Part shown: in pieces, positions 37,342 to 62,600 of the stretch | Numbering within the stretch: position 1 is the stretch's first letter | Layout of the letters: the number at the start of each line of letters is the position of its first letter | Virus record (IMG/VR): IMGVR_UViG_3300049043_000070 | Location: 1-64,000 of that record | Strand: one strand, 5' to 3' | Origin: a virus | DNA: 64,000 bases | Notes under the pieces: model-generated | What the model saw: the letters and a program-made list of their open reading frames with translations, nothing else | Databases searched by the model: none | What the model was told of the DNA's origin: nothing | Position numbers and translations under genes: made by a program

Positions 37342-37695
37342 ATGACCACCACCTTCGCCCAGTTCGCTTCCGAGCAAACCGCCCGTAACACCATTCAACT
37401 CAACATCGTCAAGTATTGCTTGATGCTCTGTGATGCTCTCAAGCAGGTTGCTCCTGATGGTTACGGTTATGAACTGAATAGCTCTGGTCGTAAGTATCAC
37501 AAAATCTACATGTGTATCAACGGTCAGCGTGATAGCATCCACGCTTTTATTGACAAGACCAACGGTTATGTGTACAAACCTGCTAGCATCAAAGCTCCTG
37601 CCAAAGGTGTACGCTACAACCTGCTCGTTATGAGCGAGCGTGAGCAGATGCTTGAGAAGTGTGACTGGGCAGGCGGTTACCTTTACATGCGGTGA
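37342..37695 (+). CDS. Conserved cyanophage protein of unknown function
   Basis: 117 residues, MTTTFAQFASEQTARNTIQL. I recall near-identical proteins in other Synechococcus phages, with conserved GYGYELNSSGRKYHKIYMCI and KPASIKAPAKGVRYNLL and a terminal CDWAGGYLYMR. The start was chosen downstream of TATACT. Function unknown. Confidence 0.6.
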   Translation: MTTTFAQFASEQTARNTIQLNIVKYCLMLCDALKQVAPDGYGYELNSSGRKYHKIYMCINGQRDSIHAFIDKTNGYVYKPASIKAPAKGVRYNLLVMSEREQMLEKCDWAGGYLYMR

Positions 37696-37749
37696 TGCTT
37701 GACATTCCGCATCATCCCTGCTAAATTATCTACAGAGTTCGTCTTTACC

Positions 37750-41490: not shown

Positions 41491-41544
41491 CAGTTGGATA
41501 AGTGGCACAGGGGGTGCTGAGATGCCCTCCTGATGCCCTATACT
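41486..41544 (+). promoter_or_regulatory. Dyad/-10 early promoter
   Basis: AGTGACAGTT-GGAT-AAGTGGCACA at 41486-41509, 29 bases, TATACT 41539-41544, then 22 bases to ATG 41567. The left arm overlaps the previous stop codon. Confidence 0.75.
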
Positions 41545-47361: not shown

Positions 47362-47532
47362 ATGATTGATGAGAATACACCTTACAAACTAGCAGAAATC
47401 ATACGAAATACATGGCCTCAGTTGTTTCGTCATAAGAAGGTTGTTAATGATAATCAACAAGATGTTACGCACTGCTCCGCACCAGTGATACCAAGGGTTC
47501 TCAATAATAAAGACCTTATTGATAATCATTAG
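47362..47532 (+). CDS. Small unknown protein
   Basis: 56 residues, MIDENTPYKLAEIIRNTWPQ, with two short helices. It ends at TAG 47530-47532, before a 150-base non-coding stretch. Confidence 0.4.
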   Translation: MIDENTPYKLAEIIRNTWPQLFRHKKVVNDNQQDVTHCSAPVIPRVLNNKDLIDNH

Positions 47533-47591
47533 TAAGAAATAGTTAAAAAAATATGGTATATGTGAGCGAATGAAGATATTAGAGAGATATT

Positions 47592-47651
47592 GTGCGGTGG
47601 AGAGAGTTAAGGTGCGGTAGTGACTAGTAAGGTGCGGTGGAGATGTTGGCT
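47592..47651 (+). repeat. Three 20-bp iterons
   Basis: GTGCGGT occurs at 47592, 47612 and 47632, exactly 20 bases apart. Each is followed by a purine-rich stretch, and AAG or AA precedes the second and third copies. The stretch 47533-47683 has no convincing frame. Spacing near two helical turns is typical of protein-binding arrays. Confidence 0.5.
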
Positions 47652-47683
47652 TAGCGTGCTTGCTACCGAAAGTCAACTGAGTG

Positions 47684-47742
47684 TGTGCCAGATCTCAAAG
47701 TGTCACATAGACCCTCAGAGACCCTCCCAGATGCCCTATACT
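47684..47742 (+). promoter_or_regulatory. Dyad/-10 early promoter
   Basis: TGTGCCAGAT-CTCA-AAGTGTCACA at 47684-47707, 29 bases, TATACT 47737-47742, 26 bases to ATG 47769. Confidence 0.75.
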
Positions 47743-47768
47743 ACCTAGGTAATCAAAAGACATCCCAG

Positions 47769-47942
47769 ATGCTCACTAAGATCCAGACCATTGAGACTGA
47801 CCTCTCCCCTCAAGAGAAGATTGCCCTAGATGATCTGAAAGTTTGTGAGGCGTTCATGGAAGCACGTAAAGCAGGTGACAAGCAGACTGCCCTTCAGTAT
47901 GCTAAAGTGATGATGCTGAAAGCTTTCAACACTGGTTTCTGA
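47769..47942 (+). CDS. Small helical protein
   Basis: 57 residues from ATG 47769 (MLTKIQTIETDLSPQEKIAL). Starts upstream of the -10 were rejected. Helical, with KQTALQYAKVMMLKAF at the end. Confidence 0.5.
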   Translation: MLTKIQTIETDLSPQEKIALDDLKVCEAFMEARKAGDKQTALQYAKVMMLKAFNTGF

Positions 47943-47944
47943 AG

Positions 47945-47983
47945 TTTTCCACAACCTGTGGAAACTGTGGAAACTGTGGAAAA
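47945..47983 (+). other. DnaA-box cluster (cyanobacterial type)
   Basis: TTTTCCACA 47945-47953 is followed by TGTGGAAA at 47957, 47966 and 47975 (the last is TGTGGAAAA, a perfect inverse of the first). TTTTCCACA is the DnaA box form used by cyanobacteria. The first two also form an inverted repeat with a 3-base loop. An AT-rich tract follows. Confidence 0.5.
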
Positions 47984-48101
47984 CTCAAAATCTTAAAAAT
48001 CTCATTTTTTTGATTTTTTGAGTTTTTTAGAAATCTTAGAATTTAACTTTTTTAGTTTTTTAAGATTTTTCATTTTTTTACCAATTAAACTTTAAAGATT
48101 A
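47984..48101 (+). other. AT-rich non-coding tract (possible unwinding element)
   Basis: About 118 bases that are almost all A/T, with repeated T5-T7 runs. A terminator-like pairing of CTCAAAATC with GATTTTTTGAG is imperfect. It separates the DnaA-box cluster from ATG 48110 and fits either a duplex-unwinding region or a terminator plus leader. Confidence 0.4.
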
Positions 48102-48109
48102 ACACACAC

Positions 48110-48358
48110 ATGACGAAATCATTTCAAAAGCTTAATAGTTCTGCTATTAATAGTGTAGAAGTAGATGAAAATGTAGTTAAAGTAGTGTATAATAGTAACT
48201 TAGATAAAGAATATACATTTAACTGTGAAAATGTAGAAGAATTTGTAGAGAATTTGAGTAAAGAACTTGTAGATATTGAACTAGACAACAATAAAGGATC
48301 TGTTGGTCGTTTTATTAACCAACAGATCAAATCTGGTGTTCTAGTTCAATCTAAATAA
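48110..48358 (+). CDS. KTSC-like small phage protein
   Basis: 82 residues. The pattern SAINSVEVDENVVKVVYNSN then KEYTFNCENVEEF and GSVGRFINQQI resembles the KTSC fold (strands with a final helix and GRFIxxxI). These domains occur in phages and toxin-like proteins without a fixed biochemical role. Strongly AT-rich leader. Confidence 0.5.
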   Translation: MTKSFQKLNSSAINSVEVDENVVKVVYNSNLDKEYTFNCENVEEFVENLSKELVDIELDNNKGSVGRFINQQIKSGVLVQSK

Positions 48359-48623: not shown

Positions 48624-48953
48624 ATGCGAGTTATCGAACGCAAGATGAACGCTGCCATTCACGCTGGCAAAGATTTCAAACTTGATAACACTCAAGTGGT
48701 TTCGTACACTAACAGCTCTGATGTGTACCTGCATGGTAATCTGATTGCTCGTGTGGGTGAGACTTGGGTGGAGATCTTTGATGGTGGTTGGCAATCTAAC
48801 ACCACCAAATCTCGCCTGAATGCTATTCTGCGTGAGCATGGTTGCCCTGGTGATTGTGTCTTCCAGAAGAACTATACGTGGTTTGTGACTTTCACAGATT
48901 GTAAAAATCAGAAAGTTACTGTTCCTTTCTTTTCTGGTATGCGTTTGAATTAG
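48624..48953 (+). CDS. Conserved phage protein of unknown function
   Basis: 109 residues, MRVIERKMNAAIHAGKDFKL. The block LHGNLIARVGETWVEIFDGG then TTKSRLNAIL is one I recall from small proteins of diverse phages. Beta-rich with a short helix. A strong terminator follows. Confidence 0.6.
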   Translation: MRVIERKMNAAIHAGKDFKLDNTQVVSYTNSSDVYLHGNLIARVGETWVEIFDGGWQSNTTKSRLNAILREHGCPGDCVFQKNYTWFVTFTDCKNQKVTVPFFSGMRLN

Positions 48954-48963
48954 TGAAATTTCA

Positions 48964-49014
48964 AAATATCGGAAATCTCAATATTTTCATTTTATTGGGA
49001 TTTCCGATATTTTT
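48964..49014 (+). terminator. Strong rho-independent terminator
   Basis: A 14-bp perfect stem: AAATATCGGAAATC 48964-48977 with GATTTCCGATATTT 48999-49012, followed by further T. The loop is 21 bases and AT-rich. Confidence 0.75.
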
Positions 49015-49100
49015 ATAAATTATAAATTATAACTTATAACTTATAATAGGTTATATGTTATAATATACTATTAACATATTAATACTCAAAGAGGTTTATT

Positions 49101-50527: not shown

Positions 50528-50550
50528 CACAAACTGGGCGGCCGCTTCGC

Positions 50551-59600: not shown

Positions 59601-62600
59601 TATTTGTTTGCTAATGATACATTAAGACAACCTGCTACCGGTTCTTATGGTGAAATTGTTGGTACTGTTTCCAATGACAATACTATTGTGTTAAAAAATG
59701 TTTCTGGTACTTTCAATACAACTGGAACATTTTCGGCAGACATTAAAACATTTTCAATCTTAATTGATCAGGATAGCAATTATACAAAAGGTGCGATTTT
59801 ATCTTTAACTGATGGTATTAATCCTCCAATTGCTACAGGTGAAGTTTTAGAAGGAACATCAAGACAGAATGTTGTAAAAATTAAAGTTTTAACTGGTACG
59901 TGGGCAGTTAATGACGATTATTTTATTCAATCAAACGATTTATTCAATACTTCTGGATCTAGAATTATTCGTCTTACATCGTTAAGCGATAATCTAGAAC
60001 CGTTTGTTGTAAATCAAAATGTTGCGTTGGTTGAAACTATTCAACCACATGGTTTAGGAATTGGTGATGAAGTTAGTATTGATATTCTTCCAAATGACGC
60101 AATAAAAACAAAAACCTATTACGTAAGAAAAAGACTTTATCAAAAAGTAAAGTTTTCATCTCCAGAGTACATATCAAATATCAATTACACTGGTGTAGGG
60201 AGATTTGAAATTCTAAATGGCGGAGCAGATTATACTCCAGGAACTTATAACAATATTTCACTCACTGGCGGATCTGGAACAGGAGCTACTGCTAGCATCA
60301 TTGTATCTGCTGCTGGAATTGTTTCCTCTGTTGTAATTCAGAATGGCGGATCTGGATACAAAAAAGCGGATTATCTAAGTGTAGATGATGAAGATCTAGT
60401 GAGGTCATTAGCATCTCTTGGAAATGCCAGATTAACAATTTATGTTGATCATGTCGGATTTGCTGCTGGATCTACGGCACTGTTTGTTGATAGTTCTATA
60501 GGTGCTTCTAACGGCAATCTACTTAAAATTGGCAACGAAATTGTACAGGTGTCATCAATTTCTGGCAACAGAATTAATGTAATTAGAGCAAGAGAAGGTA
60601 CACAAAATACAGACCATTATGATGGTCAAGAAGTTTCTCTATACAAACCAAGATACAACTTTGCCAACAATTATCAGATATCTTCTTCTAGTTTCTCTGG
60701 ATTTATTAAGTCATACGATCCAAATACACAAGAAGCTGATAATTGTTTTTTCTTATTCTACTGAAAAAGCAAATGCTGAAGATGTAAAGATTAGTACTAG
60801 TTTCTTTGATACCAGCACTCCCACTAAAATTGGTTTCTGTAGAAACTGCCGAAACTGTTGATTATAAATTTGAATTCTCTACAGATAACGTAAACTTTAC
60901 TCCAAATCCAAATATTGATATTCAGGAATACTATAGATACAAATTTGACACATCGCATTCTTCTTTAACTGGAACTTACTTTGATTTAAGTCCAAGTAAA
61001 AATTACAATATTGTAACAGAAGAAAAAACAACATCAACTATTTTACCTGGAAATTCTGGATCATTTACTGATGTTAAATTTGGATTTGGTCCAAGATTAT
61101 CTGTAAATACATACACGCAAAAACAACAAACACAGTTTGCTAATTTTTACTACTTTGATAAGAATGGCGTTGTAAATTCAGATGAAAAATATCTTAAAAT
61201 TATTTCCGATCCTTTACAAGGAACCAAAACGATTACTTATGTAACTTCAACTCGTTTTGTATATCAATTAAGTTCTGTTCCTTTGTGGGATGGATCTGGA
61301 TCTATAACTTATACAACAACTGGCCAATTTGCTATTGGTTCAATAAACTCGTTTGATGTCATAAATTCTGGTCTAAATTATAAGAAGTCACCAATTGTTG
61401 TTGGATGTGACCCATCTGCTCCTTTTAAGGCACAAGCAACTGTATTGTTTGATCAAATAACAAAAACAATAACAGATGTCAGAATAGATAACGAAGGATC
61501 AAATTATCACAACCCAAAGATTGTCATCACAAATGGAGATGGAATTAATGCTGAATTTAAAATTATTGTTAGGCAGGGAAGAATTTTTTCAATAACCGTA
61601 GAAAATCCGGGAAAAAACTATACGTTTGCTCCAGAAATTGAGATTGTTGAAGGAGATGTGGAAGCATACGTCAATAGCAATTCTATTGGTGTTCCTCAGA
61701 GTATTTCTATACTTAAGAACGGTGGATCATTCCATCTTGATAAAACAGTATCTTCTGACTTTACTTCAAAATATGTTTTTTCGCTTGTTAATTTTTCTGG
61801 TCAGTTTCAGAAAGGCGAGATTGTAATTCAAACAATTTCTGGTGTAGAAGTTGCTAGAGGCACAGTATCGGAATGGAGAGAAGGATCCAATCTACTGAAA
61901 GTAGAAAATATAACAGGAATTTTTAGAAAAGATTATACCGTAACATCAATTGATGGCAATTCAACTGGCACAATCAAATCCGTGTTTGTAACAGGATTAT
62001 TGCCAGATATTACAAGTTTTTATAATAACTTAGGATATTATAAATCTGATAAGGGAAAACTTGGTGTTTCTAATCAAAAGATTACAGATAGTAATTTCTA
62101 TCAGGATTATTCTTACGTTATCAAATCAAAAACTCCTATTGAACAGTGGAGAGAGTTGATTAAATCAACAACTCACCCAGCTGGATTTAAATTATTTGGT
62201 CAAGTTGATGTTGAAACAAATAGTTCAACATCAATGCCCCAACAAACGGCAAAGAATGGACATTTTTCAATTATTCAATTATGGGATCCAGAAAAAAATG
62301 TCGTCACGATTGAAAATACAAGAAGAATTGTAACACAAACTATACAAAAGTAGAGAACCAAAGAATACGTAGAGGTTTTGGTTCGGCATCTCCATCAGAG
62401 TTTAATTTTAGTGAATATCGTGCGTTTACTGTATCTCTTGCTCAACCATTTAATGGATATTATGATAGTGACGGTAGATTACAGGGAAGAACAGTATTCC
62501 AAATAAGAAATGATGCTGGAGTACCATTCACTCCGATCAGCGCCAAGAGTTTGATTATTACCTTAGATGGAATTCTCCAAGAACCAGAAGTAGCATATAC

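Follow-up and report, generated by a model that had tools for sequence, protein, structure and literature searches.

Replication origins of T4 and cyanobacteria as points of comparison

In phage T4, the origins oriF and oriG each combine a promoter with an A/T-rich unwinding element downstream of it, where the transcript forms an R-loop that primes replication, whereas oriE, which contains iterons and an early promoter, is retained by relatives in syntenic regions (PMC3016281). The cyanomyoviruses lack motA (PMC2984593), and a single theta origin was predicted for Syn9 in work that the same article cites (PMC2984593). In cyanobacteria, TTTTCCACA is the published DnaA box (PMC4674748). Our inspection of the open-licence literature retrieved no paper in which a replication origin had been mapped, or DnaA boxes described, for a T4-like cyanophage. 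To our knowledge, no DnaA boxes have been described at T4 oriF or oriG, and we know of no T4-like phage that recruits the host initiator DnaA for replication. T4-like cyanophages rank among the most abundant viruses of the sea.

The window analyzed here comprises the first 64 kb (64,000 nucleotides) of a 186,293-base virus record, the relatives of which are T4-like Synechococcus phages, with S-WAM2 and S-RSM4 among the near ones. An earlier note, made from the letters of the window, had described an origin-like cluster of iterons, DnaA boxes, and an A/T-rich tract. The alignment of the same place in relatives revealed that this cluster is part of a longer conserved noncoding element, which in short consists of a box array, a core (TTGkCTTAGC..CGAAwGTCAA), a promoter-like stretch, and an A/T-rich tract. 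It is a control element common to T4-like viruses of ocean cyanobacteria, and many of its copies carry cyanobacterial-type DnaA boxes. The explanation that ranks first in our assessment, albeit tentatively, is that this composite cis-element serves as an early T4-type replication origin to which host DnaA is recruited in many lineages. A transcript from the predicted promoter would enter the A/T-rich tract of low stability, persist as an R-loop, and prime leading-strand synthesis; in many lineages, the array of host-type boxes would recruit host DnaA, which may help to open the tract or activate the promoter.

Like oriF (ori uvsY) and oriG (ori 34), the element presents, in a T4-like phage, a promoter-like site followed by an A/T-rich tract of low stability. 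It differs in that the T4 origins use a MotA middle promoter, whereas the cyanophage element combines host-type boxes with a conserved core, and its R-loop is putative. Judged by sequence, a predicted promoter with an adjacent downstream A/T tract is present in S-WAM2 and Syn1, whereas an open reading frame (ORF) intervenes in the window and Syn9, S-RIM2, and ACG-2014d lack the tract. Evenly spaced direct repeats and a predicted early-type promoter are shared with oriE; however, the T4 repeats are 12 nt long and common to relatives, whereas the 20-nt cyanophage repeats are multiplied in few phages. As in the cyanobacterial oriC beside dnaN, TTTTCCACA boxes adjoin an A/T-rich stretch, but the phage element has no adjacent dnaN or dnaA, no GC-skew turning point, and few boxes, many relatives are boxless, and the marine host regions prefer TTTTCCCCA. 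Syn9, for which the theta origin was predicted, belongs to the same phage group and carries the element at ~52.6 kb, and its GC-skew profile has no turning point at this position. The origin proposed in the earlier note thus gains from the recurrence of the boxes in relatives and from the T4-type anatomy (predicted promoter plus A/T-rich unwinding tract) in the window's clade, and it loses from iterons that proved inessential, close relatives that lack exact boxes, a GC skew with no inflection here, and host dnaN-side boxes that mostly read TTTTCCCCA.

Core, promoter-like unit, and A/T-rich tract

The element runs from an A/T stretch (TTAAAAAAATATAGGTAA) and a segment (AGGTGCGsTGGAGATG) to the core (TTGGCTTAGC..CTACC..CGAAAGTCAA), which is followed by a palindrome (TGTGCCA..TGGCACA), a TATAAT-like hexamer, the A/T tract, and a small conserved gene. 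The upstream block (positions 47470 to 47560 of the window, + strand), recognized by word matches in relatives, contains TTATTGATAATCA-type palindromes and the A/T stretch TTAAAAAAATAT, and its words recur in S-RSM4, S-WAM2, S-H9-1, S-B43, and IMG/VR loci. Two Fur-box-like words, TGTTAATGATAATCA (47442-47456) and TGATAATCATTAGTA (47520-47534), lie within this conserved block; comparable weak matches are found all over the window.

The three GTGCGGT iterons first noted in this cluster are indeed 20 bases apart, at 47592, 47612, and 47632, and GTGCGGT occurs nowhere else in the 64-kb window. TRF reported a 20-nt array at 47581-47643, in which the three repeats of (a)aGGTGCGGTGGAGA occupy 47592 to 47643 (+ strand). 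What is repeated in tandem is the GGTGCGGTGGAGA segment adjoining the core, which is normally single-copy: there are three copies in the window and in locus L132, four in L130, and one in most relatives. Because only the window and a small number of its relatives have multiplied this segment, the iterons are not essential. Evenly spaced direct repeats that are kept across relatives, a hallmark of T4 oriE, were not observed, the repeats being present in the window, L130, and L132.

The core, TTGGCTTAGCGTGCTTGCTACCGAAAGTCAA, is located at 47646 to 47676 (+ strand) and is supported by a 54-sequence alignment. It is recognizable in the window's clade as well as in S-PM2, Syn1, Syn9, S-RIM2, S-CAM1, and S-RIM32, and its CTTAG and GTCAA motifs are near invariant among the 54 aligned sequences. 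The same alignment provided no consensus RNA fold for the core region, and no Rfam family scored above its own gathering score at the element. Near-invariant motifs that share no common RNA fold suggest that the core is a site on DNA for a protein.

Downstream of the core are an imperfect palindrome, TGTGCCAGATCTCAAAGTGTCACA (47684 to 47707, + strand), which is common to a local promoter family, and a predicted -10-like hexamer (47737 to 47742, + strand), assigned by eye in the alignment, which reads TATACT in the window and TATAAT in most relatives. TTGACA is absent at the window promoter and present upstream in Syn9, S-RIM2, and ACG-2014d, and a generic promoter scan of the window did not list the hexamer at 47737 to 47742. 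The promoter-like unit, TGwCAGTTnnnnAAsTGGCACAG followed ~10 to 35 nt on by CCCTATAAT/CATACT, was found at 41501, 42804, 44091, 47699, 48555, 49289, and 49542 on the + strand and at 50550 and 50775 on the - strand. The combination of palindrome and hexamer recurs in the small-gene region, with about seven + strand copies from 41.5 to 49.6 kb, and is scarce elsewhere in the 186-kb genome. A small ORF of 57 amino acids (47769 to 47942, + strand) separates the promoter from the box array and places ~240 nt between the predicted -10 and the A/T tract. Comparable ORFs are present in L085, L116, L130, L132, and L142, whereas most relatives have none; the ORF of the window had no match in PHROG and nothing above the cut-off in Pfam.

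The A/T-rich tract at 47984 to 48101, of which 47984 to 48095 is the putative unwinding element, is situated where it had been placed, but its A/T content, initially given as almost pure, is about 85% (0.86 in the best 90 nt). According to nearest-neighbour energies, it ranks third among the least stable 100-bp segments of the window genome, and the corresponding tract holds rank 1 in Syn1, rank 2 in S-WAM2, and rank 7 in S-PM2. The low stability was shown for one clade; the Syn9 clade (Syn9, S-RIM2, and ACG-2014d) has no such tract, with ranks from 77 to 120. As RNA, the window tract forms a hairpin (z of -4.1), and the A/T tracts of 51 loci, several of which are protein-coding or for other reasons no genuine elements, fold somewhat better than shuffled sequences on both strands (mean z of -1.8 and -1.2). 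Considering that no Rfam family exceeded its gathering score and that the core region has no consensus fold, we make no claim of a structured RNA. The least stable 100 bp genome-wide starts at 49007, 1 kb downstream of the element, and lies beside a 46-nt imperfect inverted repeat and a TTATAAA tandem (48938-49046). The first conserved gene 3' of the element (phrog_4357; 48110 to 48358, + strand) is T4-GC 805 in annotated relatives. Further downstream, at 48624-48953, is a Kyano_Gp96 gene (PF23790, phrog_554), relatives of which were identified by tblastn at ~1.3 to 1.7 kb in several short records of Pseudomonas and Vibrio phages.

A role in transcription only ranks close behind the replication origin as a possible explanation. 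The element would then drive the small-gene cluster as a strong promoter region, with a core that binds an activator, boxes that recruit host DnaA as a transcription factor, and the tract as an untranslated leader. Its position 5' of conserved small genes, its terminal TATAAT-like hexamer, and the recurrence of palindrome plus -10 at the seven or so + strand sites agree with this, as does the Syn9 clade, in which the tract is missing but boxes, core, and promoter are retained. Furthermore, the host factor PhoB binds S-PM2 promoters at the DNA polymerase and uvsX genes (PMC10976474). However, the other members of the promoter family contain neither boxes nor core, the stability of the tract, where it is present, is exceptionally low, and some boxes (L043, L067, and L149) sit between promoter and gene, which would be odd for an activator.

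Box arrays among cyanophages

In the window, the array consists of a box and three further copies spaced by 9 bases, at the coordinates given in the earlier note; two of the four are exact matches and two contain one mismatch. An exact TTTTCCACA on the + strand (47945 to 47953) is followed on the - strand by two one-mismatch boxes, GTTTCCACA, in a 9-nt tandem (47957 to 47974) and by a second exact TTTTCCACA (47975 to 47983). The TGTGGAAA starts at 47957, 47966, and 47975 form a perfect 9-nt tandem, in which the two middle boxes read TGTGGAAAC, with one mismatch each. The four boxes directly precede the A/T tract, an arrangement of several boxes beside an A/T-rich tract that characterizes DnaA-dependent oriC regions. 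Single-word counts of TTTTCCACA are unremarkable (4 in the window versus 1.4 expected), and the evidence resides instead in the tight pairing of boxes here and in relatives.

Conservation of the boxes in relatives had been set beforehand as a test capable of refuting the origin proposal; the outcome was no refutation, as boxes recur at the locus in S-PM2, Syn1, S-RIM44, S-RIM32, S-CAM1, Syn33, ACG-2014d, S-RIM2, Syn9, and others. Complete phage genomes contain between 0 and 12 copies of exact TTTTCCACA. In 24 complete genomes, which were picked by a match to the neighbouring sequence or a nearby gene and not by boxes, exact TTTTCCACA boxes form 19 close pairs (within 40 nt), every one of them at this locus, compared with ~0.1 expected anywhere. 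For P-TIM68 and S-SZBM1, which have no clear core, the locus centre used in this count was derived from gene neighbourhood and boxes; when both are left out, the figure is 16 of 16. In S-RIM32 (61859-61880), ACG-2014d (37684-37703), and S-SZBM1 (614-634; all record coordinates), a second TTTTCCACA pair lies ~0.4 to 1 kb from the first.

A set of 27 non-redundant loci, selected blind to boxes and cleared of loci fetched by box patterns, harbored 25 boxes versus 0.5 in shuffled sequences. A cruder, preliminary ratio, in which close relatives and spurious matches to the core are counted too, is 63 boxes in 75 kb versus 41 in 925 kb. When 2.9 million viral contigs were scanned for TTTTCCACA-N14-TGTGGAAAA, irrespective of the core, at least 105 distinct loci were retrieved; among the matches listed, 59 of 105 have a relaxed core 30 to 170 nt away, whereas random positions have one at that distance in 1.2% per strand. 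Only 10 of the 27 non-redundant loci carry any box, and the close relatives S-RSM4, S-WAM2, S-H9-1, and S-B43 have no exact box in their whole genomes, so that the boxes are not universally essential.

The boxes change position and orientation among phages yet remain at the locus. Arrays are upstream of the core in S-PM2, Syn1, S-RIM32, and Syn9, downstream of the promoter and adjoining the A/T tract in the window, L043, L067, and L085, and on both sides in L058, L167, and L170. They are inverted in some phages and form direct repeats with 2- to 3-nt spacing in others, the latter fitting a protein array; such turnover is better accounted for by sites for one protein than by a hairpin. The distances between box and core peak near 48, 57, 66, and 76 nt, with a best-fitting period of 9.2, and a 10-nt helical phasing of boxes versus core is only suggestive, given that the lineages are not independent.

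Readers and roles of the boxes

Host DnaA is a plausible reader of the phage boxes. At 80 picocyanobacterial loci, the 600 nt upstream of dnaN are enriched in exact TTTTCCACA, with 14 copies in 47 kb versus 2 in 610 kb elsewhere. In 79 picocyanobacterial genomes, however, TTTTCCCCA is the commonest box upstream of dnaN (42 versus 12 for TTTTCCACA), and host and phage show no correlation in their box-variant profiles (rho of 0.19, P of 0.34); we therefore consider DnaA as the reader plausible and no more. The wider proposition that T4-like cyanophages start replication at a conserved locus via host DnaA, with an array that is mobile around a fixed core, is doubtful, if still to be taken seriously.

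The mismatch between the profiles, namely, near-invariant boxes in phages and varied dnaN-side boxes with another favoured sequence in hosts, would be expected if a phage-encoded protein read a site that resembles the cyanobacterial DnaA box, at an origin or a promoter that operates without host DnaA. This is unlikely in view of the exact match of the boxes to the published cyanobacterial box (PMC4674748), the enrichment of TTTTCCACA upstream of host dnaN, and the lack of a DnaA-like gene in the seven phages examined. A phage-encoded DnaA was not found in these seven phages, G000 included, none of which has a gene for DnaA domain IV (Bac_DnaA_C).

Slightly less probable still is titration, in which the boxes would soak up host DnaA and thereby block host initiation or alter host gene control. 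A DnaA-titrating locus, datA, exists in Escherichia coli, and the phage boxes, nearly all of exact consensus and variable in place and orientation, resemble simple binding sites. But a phage genome with its two to four boxes would be a weak competitor early in infection, and sequestration needs no coupling to core and promoter, whereas the coupling observed is strong. Least probable of all is an array that acts as an intrinsic terminator or RNA hairpin instead of a set of protein sites: inverted copies do fold as a AGUUUUCCACA/UGUGGAAAACU stem in the window, where the array follows an ORF stop, and in S-PM2 and S-RIM32, but Syn1 (array unfolded, z of 0.2), S-RIM44, S-CAM1, L037, and L115 have direct repeats only, no T-run directly follows the stem, and the terminator scan was blank at 47944-47990, so that a terminator was rejected for the stemless direct-repeat arrays.

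If DnaA is recruited to the element as an early replication origin, phage replication would be tied to the host initiator, the importance of which differs among cyanobacteria. The element offers one short, conserved, and named place for origin work, laboratory hosts exist (S-PM2 or Syn9 on Synechococcus WH7803 or WH8102), and the boxless relatives provide natural comparisons. Cumulative GC skew was dropped as origin evidence because none of the seven genomes examined, Syn9 among them, has an inflection at the element and because the skew is confounded by the orientation of genes on one strand. Between 50000 and 53000, the window has a G+C content of 0.47 to 0.58, compared with ~0.38 around it, and a falling cumulative skew, and this segment is possibly a foreign insert.
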